From: a virus
Direction: 5' to 3' (one strand)
DNA length: 23,506 bases
IMG/VR virus record: IMGVR_UViG_3300043823_000365
Coordinates: 1-23,506 of that record
The notes under the pieces are model-generated. The model did not search any database. It was not told where the DNA came from and was given only the letters and a program-made list of their open reading frames with translations. Positions 963 to 17,675 of this stretch are shown here, in pieces (the stretch's first letter is position 1; every line of letters begins with the position of its first letter). The position numbers were made by a program, and so were the translations under genes.

Positions 963-1283
963 TTATTCCATAGATGTGGAAAACTTTATACCATTTACAA
1001 TCATTACAGGCTCTTGGCATTGTGATGGATGGCGATATAGGGGTATCTCCTCCCAAAAATCTTCTTTGTATGTTTCCGCTTTGCGTGTTTTCCAAAAAAT
1101 TGGATGGGCATTGCACGTGAACCTTCCATGGCTTTCGTACGCCCATCCATAAGGCTCTTGCTTTTCTAGGTTTGCTATTGCTTGATTTAGAGAGTTGATA
1201 GCAAGATTTGCCGCTCTAGTTGCGCCTTCTTGCCATGAATATTCTTCCAGTGCCTCAAGTGCTTGTTTTAATACTTTAATCAT
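963..1283 (-). CDS. mosaic phage family protein, copy C, with altered C-terminus
   Basis: Starts at the ATG of MIKVLKQALEALEEYS, whose ATGA overlaps the upstream stop; a further ATG nine bases upstream is less likely. It carries IANLEKQEPYGWAYE and PLYRHPSQ, but then departs from the family: the expected PRKPLTEEE segment is absent and it ends STSME. The usual HIYGIKE ending is present in the DNA (to base 955) in another frame, so this copy looks frameshifted relative to its sisters. The protein may still be made (106 aa), but the C-terminal module is lost. Confidence 0.55.
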   Translation of the reverse strand: MIKVLKQALEALEEYSWQEGATRAANLAINSLNQAIANLEKQEPYGWAYESHGRFTCNAHPIFWKTRKAETYKEDFWEEIPLYRHPSQCQEPVMIVNGIKFSTSME

Positions 1284-1501
1284 GATACCCATCCATTATC
1301 CAGTGCATCCCAGACCCAATCTTTTTTGACTAACAAATGCCTTGCTGCATTCAAGCTATCCTGCCAGAAGTGCATCTCAAACTCGTACATCATTGCCAGT
1401 TCAAAATTTTCAAGGCGAATAGATTCCCTGCGATAGAAAGCAGCTTGTGAGTGCATCATCCTAGCCAGTAGGTATAAGTCAATTAATTCATCTTTTTTCA
1501 T
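1280..1501 (-). CDS. hypothetical phage protein, 73 aa
   Basis: Starts MKKDELIDLYLLARM and looks wholly helical, with many aromatic residues and a WQDSLNAARHLL segment; it ends DALDNGWVS. The start ATGA overlaps the stop of the upstream gene, and its own stop overlaps the start of copy C, so it is translationally coupled on both sides. The AGGGGACAAG before the ATG is the ribosome-binding site. Family not recognised. Confidence 0.6.
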   Translation of the reverse strand: MKKDELIDLYLLARMMHSQAAFYRRESIRLENFELAMMYEFEMHFWQDSLNAARHLLVKKDWVWDALDNGWVS

Positions 1502-2802: not shown

Positions 2803-4671
2803 TTAAATCTCGCAAACCCCCGCCGTGCAGGCCAGCATCTGCGCTCCCTCGACGTTGTCCGTTATCTCCTTGAAATCTTTCCAGTTGATAACAGGCATCT
2901 TAGCCTTGAGATCCAGGTACTCCTGCTCAGTGCACTCCTCGTACGGCGCCTGGCGGTAAGTGCCGCCGTCGTAAGGTAGGTACGACACGCCGCTAATCTC
3001 GCCGAAATGCTCCCAAGTCCACGCGCCAACGCTTGGCCAATCTTTTTCCTCAACGGATATCGTAACAGACGGCTTATGCTCGCACCAATGTTGCTGATAG
3101 GTGAGCCATAGAGATAGATGTCCAACTGGAGTGACATCGCCTCTCGTAAGGCCGTCGGGTGCTCGTTGGGGGAAAGAGAAGACCACAGTCTGTTCAGGCT
3201 TGTATACGCAGTCCTCGGCAGGTACTCCGGCCTCTCTAAGAAACTGGCTAAGAGGGTCTTTTTTATCACCTCGTACTCGTCTGATGTAATACCTGGCGTG
3301 CCTTGGATGAATTCCAGAAGCGGAGTCAGTGAGCTGGGAGACTGTCCCACTCGGCTTGACACATGTAATAGCACAGCTCTCAGGTACTCCGAGGATGGAT
3401 GCCCATTCTTTATTAGTAGCGCGAGCAGTTTCTCGCAGGGTGTCGAGTAGGTCATTTAGCTCTTTTCCTTCCGTGCAGAGCAGTTTGTTGTCGTAGATGC
3501 CGGTAATTGAGACGCCGAGTAGCCTCTCCTCCTCTGTATTTCGTTGCCACACCTTACGCAGATAAGGGAACTTAGTGAATGTGCTCTGCATAGTGCCCAG
3601 AATGGTAGCAATTCGTACCTTCTCGAGTAGAGTCTCTTTAGTGTCATCATGGCGCGCTACAATCTCAGTAAGATTACAGAACTGGTACGGTCTAAGAATA
3701 ATCTCCGAGCAAGGATTAGTTCCGAACTCATGATTTGGATCTCTATGCCCGTATTTTTCAACCGTCTTTTTAGCAGCCTCCCGATTAAAAATCCCTCGCT
3801 CACCGGAGTGGGAGTTGTAAAGTGACAGCCACTCTTCCATGAACTTTCCGACAGTAGGTGTTTCGTTATACACCGCACTATTGTTCGCAAGTGCGCGGTG
3901 CGGCGCGGTTTCCCACCAAGGCCCAGATTTAGCATGTCTAATCCTCTCATCGTCAAGGTCTGATAAACTGATCATCGCGGAGCGACGCACGCCGCCAACC
4001 ACAACAACCTCACCAATCTTACACATCAGGTCGTGGCACTCCAGTGAGTTGAGCTTGCGGCCCCTTGCGCCCTTGAAGAGCTTAACCGAGAACTCAAACA
4101 GATCCACCAATGGGCCGGGGCCACTGGCACGACCGCCAAAAGTCTTTAAACGGGTCCCAGCGGCCCTAACGCCGCTCACGTCCCACTTAGGTACTTCGCC
4201 GGCGTATAAATGCGCTATGAGCAGGCGTAGGGCCTTTGCCCAGCCCTCTTTGGAGTCGTGCACCTTGATCACGCTCTCCGAGTCAAACATTTTCTCTGGG
4301 ATCTCTGGCAGCTTGCTGATGTTGCTGTTTTCAACGCTGAACCCGACGCCGGTGCCGCAGAGCAGGATGAACATGGCCTCGTCGAATGATTTGACGTCAT
4401 CCACAGGCAGGTAACTGCAGTTGTAGATACAGGTATTGTCGCGGTCCGCGCTCTTGCCGGCGGTCATCATGGCGCGCATGGACGGCATCACCTTGTGATT
4501 TAGAATTGCGTCATGTATTGTCTTCTTCAGATCAGAGCTAAGCGTTGGCAGTCTGCTGAACATGTAGTTGACAAAACGATCGGTTGTCTCTTCCCAGGTC
4601 TCGCGACGATTCTTGTCGTCTATAAATCTCGCGTAGCGACTGGCGGCGATGTACTCTCTGTATTGATCCAT
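2803..4671 (-). CDS. nrdJ: adenosylcobalamin-dependent (class II) ribonucleoside-triphosphate reductase
   Basis: Reduces ribonucleotides to deoxyribonucleotides for phage DNA synthesis with a B12-derived radical. Visible motifs: NTCIYNCSY (C85, likely partner of C332), NPCSEI (residues 319-324, with thiyl-radical cysteine C321 and E323), QFCNLTEI (C332), KPSGTVSQL (439-447) and a C-terminal CTAGVC pair (C615, C620) that would reload the active site. At 622 aa it is shorter than the roughly 740-residue Lactobacillus enzyme but has every catalytic landmark, so it is probably active. It needs host cobalamin and no second subunit. No Shine-Dalgarno is visible before the ATG (AAAACGAAAAATAAAACA). 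Intrinsic terminators on both sides make it a stand-alone transcription unit. Confidence 0.93.
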   Translation of the reverse strand: MDQYREYIAASRYARFIDDKNRRETWEETTDRFVNYMFSRLPTLSSDLKKTIHDAILNHKVMPSMRAMMTAGKSADRDNTCIYNCSYLPVDDVKSFDEAMFILLCGTGVGFSVENSNISKLPEIPEKMFDSESVIKVHDSKEGWAKALRLLIAHLYAGEVPKWDVSGVRAAGTRLKTFGGRASGPGPLVDLFEFSVKLFKGARGRKLNSLECHDLMCKIGEVVVVGGVRRSAMISLSDLDDERIRHAKSGPWWETAPHRALANNSAVYNETPTVGKFMEEWLSLYNSHSGERGIFNREAAKKTVEKYGHRDPNHEFGTNPCSEIILRPYQFCNLTEIVARHDDTKETLLEKVRIATILGTMQSTFTKFPYLRKVWQRNTEEERLLGVSITGIYDNKLLCTEGKELNDLLDTLRETARATNKEWASILGVPESCAITCVKPSGTVSQLTDSASGIHPRHARYYIRRVRGDKKDPLSQFLREAGVPAEDCVYKPEQTVVFSFPQRAPDGLTRGDVTPVGHLSLWLTYQQHWCEHKPSVTISVEEKDWPSVGAWTWEHFGEISGVSYLPYDGGTYRQAPYEECTEQEYLDLKAKMPVINWKDFKEITDNVEGAQMLACTAGVCEI

Positions 4672-6815: not shown

Positions 6816-7208
6816 TTATTTTGATTCTTTTAGGGCGGATATTAGTTTAGCCACTTCGCCGCCAAAATCAATCGTGACCTCAGCCTTCACGTCAACTTTA
6901 TTTTCTTTGACCTCTCGGTAGTCTGCGGGAAAGAGTGATTTGGTCATGATTTCAAACAAACGAACGTTGTACGTTCTGTTGTTAAGATTTGCCAGCCCTT
7001 CGCGCTCCCAATACGCCTGAGATTCTGTAGTAGCACGACTCACAGCCTCTTCAAACTCTGGATGATTCTTTTGCCATGTGGCCGCGGTTGTTTTGCTAAT
7101 GCCGATATTGGACCACATGGTTTTTTGTGACGCACCAGCCTTACCGAGCTCAACAATTAGCTCGCAGTATTTTGGATCGTATTTTAAGATATTGGATTTT
7201 GTCGCCAT
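6816..7208 (-). CDS. terS: terminase small subunit-like DNA-binding protein
   Basis: 130 aa. The N-terminal half holds a helix-turn-helix (KTMWSNIGISKTTAATWQKNHPEFEEAV, about residues 29-56) followed by helices (ESQAYWEREGLANLNNRTYNVRLFEIMTKSLFPADYREV) that match the usual plan of phage small terminase subunits, which recognise the packaging site. The tail VDVKAEVTIDFGGEVAKLISALKE could be an oligomerisation or partner-binding part. It stands alone among replication genes next to tRNAs, far from the packaging-like genes at the right end, so another DNA-binding role is possible. Upstream of the start is only AT-rich sequence without a clear Shine-Dalgarno. Confidence 0.65.
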   Translation of the reverse strand: MATKSNILKYDPKYCELIVELGKAGASQKTMWSNIGISKTTAATWQKNHPEFEEAVSRATTESQAYWEREGLANLNNRTYNVRLFEIMTKSLFPADYREVKENKVDVKAEVTIDFGGEVAKLISALKESK

Positions 7209-7336
7209 GGTTTTTATTTTTATATTAGGTGGGGATTTATCACCCCCTAGTCACCGTACTCGTGCACGTCTGCACGCCTCACCTGTAGATCCAGGTTGCC
7301 TGGTGCGGCCCTTGCGGGTCCCGTGCCGGAGTATTT
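7209..7336. other. intergenic, GC-rich with hairpins, no gene seen
   Basis: Between tRNA-Met and the TerS-like gene. The part at 7226-7251 can form a GGGG/CCCC hairpin. On the minus strand 7260-7330 has short complementary runs (CAGG/CCTG, GCACG/CGTGC) that suggest a folded leader or tRNA trailer. No open frame with a start signal and no tRNA fold were found. Confidence 0.4.
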
Positions 7337-7411
7337 TGGAAGCGGGGCCTGGAATCGAACCAGGTATCTTCAGCTTATGAGACTAACGAGTTACCATTTC
7401 TCTTCCCCGCT
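7337..7411 (-). tRNA. tRNA-Met (anticodon CAT)
   Basis: Cloverleaf read from the minus strand: acceptor AGCGGGG with CCCCGCT, a 3-base-pair D stem with AAATGGTAA loop, anticodon stem TTAGT/GCTGA with loop CTCATAA, 5-base variable loop, T arm CCTGG-TTCGATT-CCAGG. CCA is encoded. The first pair is A-T and the discriminator is T, unusual for methionine tRNAs; without enzymatic data an isoleucine (lysidine-modified CAT) or initiator type cannot be excluded, though the paired first base argues against an initiator. Confidence 0.88.
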
Positions 7412-7424
7412 TACTGTTCTGTTC

Positions 7425-7500
7425 TGGTCGGGATGGGTCGATTTGAACGACCACTCCGGGCTTCCAAAGCCCGTTGACTACCAGGTTATCCTACACCCCG
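7425..7500 (-). tRNA. tRNA-Pro (anticodon TGG)
   Basis: Minus strand: acceptor CGGGGTG with CATCCCG, a D arm containing the CTGGTA loop, anticodon stem CGGGC/GCCCG with loop TTTGGAA, T arm GGTCG-TTCAAAT-CGACC, discriminator A and encoded CCA. It lies 13 bases upstream of tRNA-Met, so the two are probably co-transcribed. It reads CCA and, by wobble, other proline codons. Confidence 0.93.
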
Positions 7501-7504
7501 AGAT

Positions 7505-7570
7505 TGTTGGTACCAACTTGGATTTTTGGCTGGCCGTGTTATCCAGCTCACCAGCAGGCTGACACCAACA
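7505..7570 (-). ncRNA. tRNA-like structured element of unknown nature
   Basis: The ends TGTTGGT and ACCAACA form a perfect 7-base-pair closing stem. Two bases in, CAGC-CTGCTGGTGA-GCTG mimics a D arm; alternatively GCTGG pairs with CCAGC around ATAACACGG. No T arm or normal anticodon arm can be drawn, and the length (66) is below that of a tRNA. It lies 4 bases from the 5' end of tRNA-Pro, so it could be a decayed tRNA or a processing signal. Confidence 0.35.
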
Positions 7571-7573
7571 AAA

Positions 7574-7611
7574 TAAGTTTACAACAGTGTTTTTTTTTTA
7601 AGTTTACAACA
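7574..7611 (-). repeat. two direct copies of TGTTGTAAACTTA
   Basis: The 13-base word occurs at 7574-7586 and 7599-7611, separated by a run of T on the plus strand (7590-7599). A close variant (TGTTGATAACTTA) is at 7961-7973. Each follows a structured element on the minus strand. Confidence 0.7.
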
Positions 7612-7689
7612 TAAATGAGGACTGTACTCCAAGCTGTTTATGAATGTGGATATACCCATTCTGCTTTCCAATCCTCATGCGTCTTGGTT
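7612..7689 (-). repeat. direct repeat with structured core, copy 1 (downstream of tad2)
   Basis: Bases 7669-7689 are identical to 8030-8050, and the ACAGTCCTCA end is shared too. In each copy TGAGGAT pairs with GTCCTCA to close a 61-62-base loop whose inner sequence differs. In this copy GAATG/CATTC makes an inner hairpin. Confidence 0.6.
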
Positions 7690-7698
7690 GTTGGTGGC

Positions 7699-7947
7699 TC
7701 ACGCGAAAGAAGATACAAGGAGAGCCCAATCTTCAGCAAGAATATCCGTCTGACTAGCTAACCAAGGAACCTTAGCCCCAGGAGTATTCTTTGCATCCAA
7801 TGGGTAATTTATGTATATATAGGGAAGAGTCATCTTGCTATTGGCATCTGGAACTTGCAATTCCAGCCATAAACCAGCACCATTCCATCCACTACGGGAA
7901 ACCTTGTTACCTAACTTTAGTTGTTCAATAGCTTGCCCAAAGTTCAT
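7699..7947 (-). CDS. tad2: Tad2-like Thoeris anti-defence protein (DUF2829)
   Basis: 82 aa, normal for the DUF2829/MW1434 family. Diagnostic pieces: MNFGQAIEQLKLGNKVSRSGWNG at the start, GLWLELQVPD, YIYINYPLDAK and VPWLASQTDILAEDWALL at the end. Established for the family: Tad2 oligomers trap cyclic ADP-ribose-type signals made by Thoeris TIR proteins, and some also bind cyclic dinucleotides, so the executioner is not triggered. Inferred here: the phage meets Thoeris or related signalling defences. The gene stands alone between two copies of a structured direct repeat, with GGAGATAGGT before its ATG. Confidence 0.9.
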   Translation of the reverse strand: MNFGQAIEQLKLGNKVSRSGWNGAGLWLELQVPDANSKMTLPYIYINYPLDAKNTPGAKVPWLASQTDILAEDWALLVSSFA

Positions 7948-7960
7948 ACCTATCTCCGTT

Positions 7961-8050
7961 TAAGTTATCAACACGGCTGAGGACTGTCCCTGCTTTGAAC
8001 GGCACACCTTGGTACAGGGTAAGGCGATTCAATCCTCATGCGTCTTGGTT
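7961..8050 (-). repeat. direct repeat with structured core, copy 2 (upstream of tad2)
   Basis: Matches the copy at 7612-7689 in its outer parts (8030-8050 exactly; TGAGGAT/GTCCTCA stem; TGTTGATAACTTAAA at the end), with a different inner part in which CCCTG pairs with CAGGG. It forms the leader of the tad2 transcript on the minus strand. Confidence 0.6.
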
Positions 8051-8149
8051 CGCGTTTTCTCTAACCGTGAGGTACCTGGACTAGGTTCTCCTACGCGACA
8101 CGGCCCGTTTGTTGGTAGGGGGATATGCCCCCTACATATACTAATGCAA
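8051..8149 (-). other. non-coding structured stretch
   Basis: On the minus strand TCGCGT and ACGCGA (outer stem) enclose AACC/GGTT and ACCT/AGGT pairs, in about 8052-8100. Further upstream is the strong hairpin at 8115-8135. No reading frame with a start signal is seen. Confidence 0.4.
8115..8135 (-). terminator. strong hairpin, possible terminator
   Basis: A perfect 8-base-pair stem (GTAGGGGG/CCCCCTAC) with a 5-base loop, 15 bases after the stop of the 61-aa gene. No T run follows, so it may be an RNA-end protector or a factor-dependent stop. Confidence 0.45.
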
Positions 8150-8335
8150 TTACTTGGGCTCTTTCGCCCCAATTGCCTCATCGCGGGCCTTGGCGCGCTG
8201 CTTAGCCTCCGCCAGGGCCTCGTTCACCACAACGCGGGTGATGGCCCCCGCGAGCTCCATTCGGGCCTTTTCCTGGCCCTCCTTGTTCGAGATGCCGTTC
8301 TTGTCCATCAGCATCCTTAGAAGCTGGCTGCTCAT
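8150..8335 (-). CDS. hypothetical protein, 61 aa
   Basis: Helical, charged protein (SSQLLRMLMDKNGISNKEGQ, then NEALAEAKQRAKARDEAIGAKEPK). Not recognised. Its ATGA start overlaps the stop of the gene upstream, so the two are coupled. It is the last gene before the structured tad2 region. Confidence 0.6.
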   Translation of the reverse strand: MSSQLLRMLMDKNGISNKEGQEKARMELAGAITRVVVNEALAEAKQRAKARDEAIGAKEPK

Positions 8336-12109: not shown

Positions 12110-12904
12110 TTACTTGTCCGATACGTTGATCATGCCCTTAAAGTCAAAGGGTACTATCACGGTTCTTACTTTGCCATCTTTCACGCCCTCGGCGATGTCC
12201 TGGAGCGCCTTAGCCTCCATGTAGCGCACGTTTTGCCCGTTAGAGCTCAGCATGGCCAGGCGCTCTGCCTCGAGCTTGGCGGTGCCCACCTCGACCTGCT
12301 TAGCCTTGGCCAGGTTCTGCGCGTTGATCACGTTATTCGCCGAGTCGATGATGCTCTGCGCAGGGAGAATGTTCTTGACCTGCACCAGGTCAATGGTGAT
12401 GTCCTTGTCCAGGTGATCGGCGACGAGCGCCTCGCGCATGAAGCTGGCGATATCTGTCTCGATCTGGCTGCGTGCGCTTGTCGCGTCGAGCACGTTGACC
12501 TTTGCAACCGCCTTAAACGCAGCTGAGTTGGCCAGCGTGGACATGTAGTTGTGCATCAGGTACGTCTCGCCATTCTCGTACGAGTGAAAGCTGCGCGAGA
12601 GCTTGGTGTAGAGCTCGGCGACGGAGGCCGGGTTTACGTTGTAGACCACCGCAAAGTCAAGGTCACCCAGGCTGGACTTGTCCGCGGTCATGGGTCTGAG
12701 GCCGGACCAGCCAACTGAGAGCTGCTTGACCGGGAACACCAGCACGTCACCGATGATCTCTTGGTTAAATGAACCAGGCTGCAATTCGGTTTGCTGAACC
12801 TGCTTGTCGAACCCAACGCGCAGGCCGATCTCGCCGGTCTCAATGCGTGTGCAACCGACCACTGAGGCTGCGGCCAAGATGAGTAAAAGTTTGAAATATT
12901 TCAT
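12110..12904 (-). CDS. SPFH/Band 7 (prohibitin-like) lipoprotein
   Basis: 264 aa. Residues 1-18 are a lipoprotein signal (LLLILAAASVVGC) with lipobox VVGC and C18 as the lipidated residue, so the protein is probably anchored outside the inner membrane or in the outer membrane. The rest is a Band 7 domain: RIETGEIGLRVGFDK, DLDFAVVYNVNP, FMREALVADHLDKDITIDLV and the helix NAQNLAKAKQVEVGTAKLEAERLAML. Such proteins form ring-like membrane scaffolds; phage versions have no settled role (superinfection, lysis timing and protease control have been suggested). AAAGGAAACTAC is the ribosome-binding site. Confidence 0.85.
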   Translation of the reverse strand: MKYFKLLLILAAASVVGCTRIETGEIGLRVGFDKQVQQTELQPGSFNQEIIGDVLVFPVKQLSVGWSGLRPMTADKSSLGDLDFAVVYNVNPASVAELYTKLSRSFHSYENGETYLMHNYMSTLANSAAFKAVAKVNVLDATSARSQIETDIASFMREALVADHLDKDITIDLVQVKNILPAQSIIDSANNVINAQNLAKAKQVEVGTAKLEAERLAMLSSNGQNVRYMEAKALQDIAEGVKDGKVRTVIVPFDFKGMINVSDK

Positions 12905-16881: not shown

Positions 16882-17106
16882 TTACTCCTCTAGGTTTGTG
16901 TCTATCCAACTGTCCAACGCGGCGTGCATGTAATCCCTCTCAGCCTGCGCGAGCGTTCTGCCGTCGCTAATCTTCCTTTGGTCGGCCATAGCTTTTTTGA
17001 AGCCCTCATGGCGAGTGAACGTGATAAATTTTTGGTCTTTCGCTCTCGCTACGACAAACGTCACGCTGCCCTCAAACGCTCTTATGTGCACCTCCTCGTT
17101 AATCAT
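16882..17106 (-). CDS. hypothetical protein, 74 aa
   Basis: MINEEVHIRAFEGSVTFVVA, then FITFTRHEGFKKAMADQRKI and an acidic helical end (QAERDYMHAALDSWIDTNLEE). Not recognised. Its ATGA overlaps the sigma-factor stop, and the GAAGAGGA coding for the sigma C-terminus acts as its ribosome-binding site. Confidence 0.6.
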   Translation of the reverse strand: MINEEVHIRAFEGSVTFVVARAKDQKFITFTRHEGFKKAMADQRKISDGRTLAQAERDYMHAALDSWIDTNLEE

Positions 17107-17675
17107 TCCTCTTCCCCCTCGCTTTGCTTCTCGTTGTTGATCATGTCCAGGCTTATCGGCTCGCGTGTCACGTAGCCCTGCAGCTGCGCGATCCTCGCAG
17201 GGGTCACCTGCAGCACCTTGGCGAGCTCATCGCTCGTAGGCTTGCGGCCCAGTATCTGCGTCAGCGCGCGCTCGTTGTACGCCATTCTGCGGATCGACTG
17301 CAGCACGTTGACCGGCAGCCGGATAATGTTCGCCGTGTTATCAAGCTCGCGCCTCACGCCGCGCTCGATCCATGGCCTGGCGTAGGCGCTGAAGCCCACG
17401 TTACCGACCGGCCTCCACTTACGCGCCGCTCGCAGCAGGCACTCGTTGCCAATTGCGATTAGGTCGTCCATGGGCAGCTTGCCGTGCCTCCAGGCGCTCA
17501 TGCGCGAGACCATGTGCACCACGAAGGGCAGGTTGTGCGTGACCAATCGGCCAAGCGCCGCCTCGTCACCCTGCGCGATCTTAGCGGCCAGCTCGTGCTC
17601 CTCAGCCGTGCTGAGTGGCGGGTACTTGTACAGAGCCTGCACGTACTCTGTTTTTCCGTCCACTGGCTTAGTCAT
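17103..17675 (-). CDS. sigma-70 family factor lacking region 4
   Basis: 190 aa. Residues 8-56 fit region 1.2/2.1 (PPLSTAEEHELAAKIAQGDE, LVTHNLPFVVHMV). Region 2 follows: PMDDLIAIGNECLLRAARKW (68-87), then GFSAYARPWIERGVRRELD (94-112), the -10-recognition helix, and NIIRLPV. Region 3 is at 127-180 (GRKPTSDELAKVLQVTPARI, then REPISLDMI). The chain stops just after it (NEKQSEGEEE), so region 4, which reads the -35 box and holds the beta flap, is missing. It may direct host polymerase to extended -10 promoters, alone or with a separate region 4-like protein (candidate at 9177-9485). Start ATG overlaps the 33-aa peptide. Confidence 0.88.
   Translation of the reverse strand: MTKPVDGKTEYVQALYKYPPLSTAEEHELAAKIAQGDEAALGRLVTHNLPFVVHMVSRMSAWRHGKLPMDDLIAIGNECLLRAARKWRPVGNVGFSAYARPWIERGVRRELDNTANIIRLPVNVLQSIRRMAYNERALTQILGRKPTSDELAKVLQVTPARIAQLQGYVTREPISLDMINNEKQSEGEEE

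Follow-up and report, generated by a model that had tools for sequence, protein, structure and literature searches.

A Tad2-family gene within a variable island of repeated hairpins on a phage contig

How does a short gene come to lie alone in a block of structured non-coding DNA in a phage genome, and what does it encode? The question is raised by positions 7699 to 7947 of the IMG/VR virus record IMGVR_UViG_3300043823_000365, of which a stretch of 23,506 nucleotides (positions 1 to 23,506; hereafter the window) was analyzed. An initial annotation, made from the letters alone, described the 82-residue product as a Tad2 (Thoeris anti-defence) homologue of the DUF2829 family and proposed that it belongs to a movable anti-defence cassette, in a neighbourhood where other counter-defence genes might be sought. 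We consider it probable that the gene encodes a genuine Tad2, a gcADPR sponge like SPO1 Tad2, and that an island composed of mobile RNA modules carries it as an accessory gene.

The tad2 gene and its product

The tad2 open reading frame runs on the minus strand from 7947 to 7699, with an ATG start, 82 codons and a stop; the plus-strand reading of 7699-7947 is interrupted by stops. A GGAG sequence at 7954-7957 (minus strand), 6 nt before the ATG, is the likely ribosome-binding site. Residues 1-76 of the product match positions 1-72 of the 73 in the Pfam profile PF11195 (Tad2-like) with a score of 82.2 bits (E = 3.8e-23), the curated cut-off being 25 bits. The N- and C-terminal strings quoted in the initial annotation were both found in the minus-strand product, and its end-to-end DUF2829/Tad2 match holds. 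To judge from the profile score, a chance match to the Tad2 family is excluded. Relatives were found in 263 stretches of IMG/VR and in 220 INPHARED records (tblastn), and a phmmer search of solved structures matched the product to SptTad2, SPO1 Tad2 (Gp34.65), AcrIIA7, and ModTad2.

The AlphaFold model, computed from an input alignment (A1) of 60 homologues, has a pLDDT of 91.4 and displays the Tad2/AcrIIA7 fold, in agreement with the family assignment. Foldseek returned 24 matches at E ≤ 0.001, every one of them a Tad2/AcrIIA7 chain, and the best is SPO1 Tad2 with gcADPR (TM 0.75/0.83). Superposition of the model and SPO1 Tad2 with VIA-align gave a Z-score of 12.0 and an rmsd of 1.6 over 72 residues, with 43% identity. 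Tad2 entries had Z-scores of 11.0-12.0, while the first unrelated entry scored 5.8.

The gcADPR pocket has been described as consisting of the b1-b2 loop, the b3-b4 loop, b4, the b4-a3 loop, and a3 (review, PMC12043709). In the window protein these segments read R18-x-G20-W21-N22-G23 and P61-W62..S65-Q66-T67-D68..L70..D73-W74. Their residues are invariant or at least 90% conserved among the 60 homologues and, P61 excepted, identical in SPO1 Tad2. Ten of the 15 residues that are invariant among the homologues (G20, W21, P61, W62, S65, Q66, D68, L70, D73, and W74) lie within or beside the segments said to line the pocket. The ligand-pocket segments are therefore retained in the alignment, and at the level of segments the predicted pocket is intact.

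AcrIIA7/HgmTad2 and SptTad2 (8kbi-8kbm, 8wjd) share the fold (VIA Z 11.0-11.6) and also bind cyclic dinucleotides, an ability ascribed to a mid-domain insertion (review, PMC12043709). The long insertion of the HgmTad2/SptTad2 type is absent from the window protein, which at 82 residues, against 101-104, shows a gap in the alignments and lacks most of the region linked to cyclic dinucleotides. A gcADPR-type ligand is thus the better guess for this protein.

SPO1 Tad2 (PDB 8sme/8smf/8smg) has the same fold, WNG loop, and W..SQTD.LAEDW segments. By comparison the window protein, known here from sequence and model, has a shorter middle region and an invariant stretch of its own subfamily, PDxxSKM..PY, or in its fuller form PDxxSKM(T/S)xPYxY. 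Since this stretch is not seen in SPO1 Tad2, and since other activities are annotated for DUF2829 members (AcrIIA7), the sponge function might have been lost or altered. We regard this as improbable, as the invariant pocket-segment positions are the same as in SPO1 Tad2, the gene is intact, and the family is strongly conserved. On its sequence the product is a genuine short-form Tad2, an ordinary new member of a known and well-studied family, and we infer that it binds a ligand. Its most likely mode of action is that of SPO1 Tad2: presumably as a tetramer, it would bind a cyclic ADP-ribose isomer from a Thoeris TIR protein so that the effector is kept off.

The variable island upstream of the small terminase gene

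The tad2 gene lies between two hairpins of approximately 81 nt, upstream of two tRNAs and a small terminase gene, and all of these features are on the minus strand. Hairpin B (7968-8048) is located in the tad2 leader and has the frame CCAAGACG-CA-UGAGGAUUG / CAGUCCUCA-GC-CGUGUUGA around an interior payload. Hairpin A (7606-7687) begins 11 nt past the tad2 stop and has the same frame, drifted on its 3' side, around another payload. ARAGORN and Rfam both identify a tRNA-Pro (TGG) at 7425-7500 and a tRNA-Met (CAT) at 7337-7411, so that the gene is indeed set in a structured non-coding block, as had been noted. A minus-strand stem-loop at 8050-8098 (TCGCGT...ACGCGA-ACCA), which by its sequence resembles a tRNA acceptor and abuts hairpin B, is recognized by neither program. 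The next gene downstream of the island encodes the terminase small subunit (6816-7208; PHROG 309, E = 1.9e-13), and just upstream there is a conserved 61-aa gene (8150-8335, minus strand) whose product ends in GAKEPK, as it does in relatives.

Comparison with three syntenic IMG/VR contigs, L308, L309, and L310, defined the bounds of the variable island. The small terminase subunits are 73% identical to that of the window, and blastn aligns the contigs to the window with identities of approximately 79-80% for one flank and 72-82% for the second. These alignments end at 7166-7222 and restart at 8127-8132 (8127 for L309), which places the island at 7222-8127. Tad2 and the island tRNAs are missing from all three contigs, and the number of hairpins at the site is zero in L309, one in L308, and two in L310, as in the window. 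The L309 site is approximately 190 nt long and, with none of tad2, hairpins, and tRNAs, represents an empty site. Because the relatives have zero to two hairpins and lack tad2 and the tRNAs, 7222-8127 is an exchangeable island; and because the flanks align while the content varies, the interval is a hotspot in which tad2 represents an accessory insertion. The GC3 of tad2 is 0.35, compared to 0.46 and 0.82 in two flanking genes, although a few other genes in the window are equally low. The gene would have been acquired as accessory cargo by insertion into this island, which is exchangeable and immediately precedes the small terminase gene.

The proposal of a movable cassette therefore survives in part. 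The absence of tad2 from the three relatives, in one of them together with hairpins and tRNAs, and the shift in GC3 support an accessory insertion, but no unit of tad2 plus hairpin was found elsewhere. Among the 80 closest tad2 loci none had a hairpin within 4 kb, and we rejected the idea that tad2 and the hairpins form one mobile unit. It follows that Tad2 does not depend on the hairpins and that the pairing of gene and hairpins in the window could be coincidence.

Several other features of this region were observed. Upstream of the small terminase, the three relatives (L308:2001-2393, L309:3815-4005, and L310:848-1319) have a predicted fold of their own, consisting of a closing stem and a CUACAGACGUGUAG hairpin. 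The repeated hairpins appear to be inserted into this fold, which may be a larger ornate RNA. Three TAAGTTTACAACA-like copies are found beside the window hairpins (7574-7586, 7599-7611, and 7961-7973); the same GTTGTAAACTTA element also occurs next to hairpins of L130 and, in the form AAGTTTACAGT, next to those of L086 and L188. Elsewhere in the window, a DUF2815 RNA (RF03084; 5260-5319, minus strand) lies upstream of the DUF2815 single-strand DNA-binding gene and is also present in L308-L310. The phage encodes a sigma-70-family factor (17103-17675, minus strand; Pfam regions 1.2, 2, and 3), and positions 2803-4671 and 12110-12904 (minus strand) encode a B12-dependent-type ribonucleotide reductase and an SPFH/Band 7 protein. 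The helicase was rejected as a sign of a defence system, as its weak matches to DpdE/ZorD models reflect a shared SNF2 domain.

The hairpin frame and its exchangeable interiors

Hairpins A and B have an identical 21-nt core on both sides of tad2. The constant frame is CCAAsACG-CA-UGxxxxUUG ... CAGxxxxCA-GY-CGUGUUGG, with an interior of approximately 20-140 nt. The frame stem covaries: 13 stem types are 96% paired, compared to 71% (maximum 86.5%) with shuffled partners, and an independent scan yielded 21 stem types with 93% paired against 69% (maximum 80%). These counts used the two of our three gapped search patterns in which 4 bp of the inner stem are unspecified. Mismatches in the unspecified pairs are biased, with 43 G-U to 12 A-C (p = 3e-5), an excess which indicates that RNA of the tRNA-sense strand folds and which would be predicted neither by a DNA cruciform nor by the opposite strand. 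In a 29-row alignment (A3), 17 pairs are 96.3% formed and seven of them show double changes, whereas slid controls reached at most 48%; row 29 is the true L308 frame with its interior shortened by hand, affecting unpaired columns only. A covariance model (R1) built without the window hairpins recovered hairpin B (7968-8048) with an E-value of 5.7e-17 and hairpin A (7606-7687) with 5.2e-10.

The hairpin is present in at least 302 IMG/VR contigs. The exact 21-mer of the frame occurs in 28 other contigs, and each of the three gapped patterns in at least 119-120. Of 84,980 GTDB species genomes one contains the hairpin, on a small contig (L208) of a Burkholderiales MAG. A blastn search of INPHARED with the frame returned chance 21-nt matches only and no carrier phage, and a 13.6-kb piece of L368, alone among the contigs in having no metagenome number, had no match there. 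Surveying the literature on comparable hairpin arrays, subscription journals and preprints aside, returned nothing pertinent. Hairpins A and B have no match in Rfam 15, including GOLLD and ROOL, even at E ≤ 1, and the abiF antitoxin RNA (RF03085) has no match in the window. At gathering scores the arrays of approximately 50 other loci contain only tRNAs and one abiF. On these scans, at their respective thresholds, we rejected the view that the hairpin is a known RNA. The Rfam motif int-alpA occurs in some hairpin contigs, outside the arrays.

The interiors fold better than shuffled versions of themselves (mean z of -1.2, n = 90). We distinguished approximately 179 interior families among 367 oriented hairpins, 111 of them with a single member; since the structure-only detector matches some palindromic sequences on both strands, these counts, and those of genes between hairpins, are approximate. 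Internal stems of a 16-member family show repeated double changes, and hairpin A, compared with L101, L108, and L146, has four double changes that leave its inner stem paired. Hairpin B shares 90.8% identity with hairpins of the otherwise unrelated contigs L089 and L099, which outside this hairpin can be aligned to the window only at a tRNA-Met; hairpin A is 85% identical to a hairpin in L101. Backgrounds without alignable flanks were found for 52 of the 68 multi-member families, while 520 of the 654 contig pairs with alignable flanks have no interior family in common. L093 and L102 differ by exactly one linker plus hairpin unit, and L088, L094, L095, and L249 have the promoter region and downstream gene in common but not the interiors. 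Interiors thus move independently of the phage, with related phages carrying unrelated interiors and unrelated phages near-identical ones. A motif resembling the tRNA T-arm (GGTTCRANYCC) was seen in 8 of 242 interiors, for example in L086, where 0.05 were expected.

Modules adjoin each other and tRNAs end to end. In L084, L089, L178, and L277 the CCA end of a tRNA doubles as the first part of the hairpin frame, and the linkers between hairpins are often GUUGGUG/CACCAAC stems. A -10-like hexamer precedes the first hairpin in 30 of 121 cases, compared to 14.9 expected and a maximum of 25 in 300 shuffles, and several first hairpins begin 7-11 nt after such a hexamer. The strand bias, the tRNA junctions, and this modest excess suggest that the array is transcribed. 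The commonest recognizable genes downstream of arrays are terminases of several unrelated families. We also observed that in the GUUGGUG..CACCAAC linkers of L084, L104, L153, L164, and L173 the first and last loops are complementary (e.g. GGCUGAU with AUCAGC). These loops seem to co-vary and could be kissing loops in a tRNA-like fold.

In 206 hairpin contigs no other gene was found between two hairpins 130-2500 nt apart, within an approximate detection, and we therefore rejected the view that the arrays are general gene-cassette islands. The expectation that other counter-defence genes would be found nearby mostly fails on the same result; what speaks for it is a Tad2-domain gene after the array in a second phage group and an abiF motif ending one array. 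Turnover in the hairpin islands concerns RNA rather than genes. Conserved ends, a variable centre, the precise gain and loss of modules, and a gene between the two window sites would also be expected if the hairpins acted as DNA, folding as single strands into recombination sites of the integron attC kind, and if tad2 were a gene cassette. We consider this very unlikely. The ends, GTTGGTG, do not fit the R' box GTTRRRY, other arrays have no gene between sites, and no integrase was found among the 30 window ORFs scanned, the record being a fragment. The G-U bias and the structured interiors point to RNA, and tRNAs substitute for modules.

Possible roles of the modules and comparison with known systems

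The island would consist mainly of mobile RNA modules, in each of which a constant outer stem in two parts encloses a structured interior that can be exchanged; the modules adjoin one another, and also tRNAs, on what is probably the transcribed strand. Our leading guess is that they act as short RNAs and that their interiors interact with host factors that change rapidly, possibly toxins or nucleases of defence systems. In a rival reading, which we put forward tentatively, the hairpins serve in counter-defence, as RNA decoys or as mimics of RNA antitoxins built on a constant scaffold; phages would exchange them in the course of an arms race, and Tad2 would share the island through shared function. 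The extreme turnover of the interiors (approximately 179 families in 367 hairpins) is consistent with this, as is the fact that interiors are structured, conserved within families, and in some cases carry tRNA T-arm motifs. Besides tad2 between the two window hairpins, a second Tad2-domain gene lies directly after an array: L125 (6319-6819, plus strand), and likewise L134 and L165, encode, 147 nt past the hairpin array and downstream of the array and a tRNA, a 167-aa protein that has a YIGTKIIKAKPM stretch in its N-terminal part and a Tad2 domain in its C-terminal part. These are, however, two independent cases of adjacency, and tad2 genes generally have no hairpins nearby, nor do other arrays have genes between hairpins.

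The L122 array ends in an Rfam abiF RNA motif (RF03085, 55 bits; 1269-1305, plus strand), which directly follows the hairpins, doubles as a terminator, and could be an RNA decoy. The abiF RNA acts as an antitoxin by binding and neutralizing the AbiF toxin (PMC12373285), and phage can escape from ToxIN through RNA mimicry of ToxI (PMC5772629). No AbiF-like gene was recognized on the L122 contig, which at 4 kb is too short to rule out AbiF elsewhere. Against a decoy role, the motif occurs in one of 441 loci and is perhaps simply a terminator. That the hairpin RNAs themselves are counter-defence decoys is plausible; that the arrays, with a constant recognition stem and swappable structured payloads among tRNAs, form an RNA counter-defence arsenal in phages of uncultured bacteria, occasionally lodging a protein sponge such as Tad2, is a suggestion that we likewise make tentatively.

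On present evidence it is about as likely that the hairpins are 5'-leader or processing elements which cap, stabilize, or space the transcripts of the downstream operon and the tRNAs, with an interior that is largely free, although this too is a reading that we hold with reserve. It would account for arrays that lie directly upstream of terminase genes, as they often do, for those that start 7-11 nt after a -10-like hexamer or within a tRNA CCA end (L084, L089, L178, L277), and for the position of hairpin B within the tad2 leader. The interiors, however, are not free, as they covary and as copies in unrelated phages are 81-91% identical. In L088, L094, L095, and L249 unrelated interiors are tolerated alongside one promoter and one downstream gene, and arrays also come after other modules rather than a promoter.

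The RNA island is the unexpected part of this locus and deserves separate study. Found in hundreds of phage contigs but missing from Rfam, a hairpin that combines one constant frame with at least 179 families of interiors would constitute a new class of mobile RNA. As syntenic phages carry different modules, cultured relatives would permit direct swap experiments. If the payloads are decoys, a large natural library would be added to the few examples of RNA-based counter-defence; if the hairpins are leader elements, they would still explain a highly variable stretch beside the phage packaging genes.

Among known systems, GOLLD and ROOL resemble the hairpin arrays in being large or clustered structured phage RNAs near tRNAs. 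Some of them have tRNAs inside, and their function is unknown (PMC12286853). They differ in that each is one large conserved RNA, whereas the arrays, which have no Rfam match, are composed of short exchangeable hairpin modules. Integron attC sites likewise are imperfect hairpins with conserved ends, a variable centre, and a flanking cassette-like gene, but the window hairpins lack the GTTRRRY box, the arrays are gene-free, and the strand bias is of the RNA type. With the type III toxin-antitoxin RNAs (ToxI, abiF/RCd22) and the ToxI mimics, the hairpins share the character of repeated short structured RNAs that a phage can carry for escape from a toxin; unlike those RNAs, the hairpins of the window have no adjacent toxin gene, and the interiors vary between copies.
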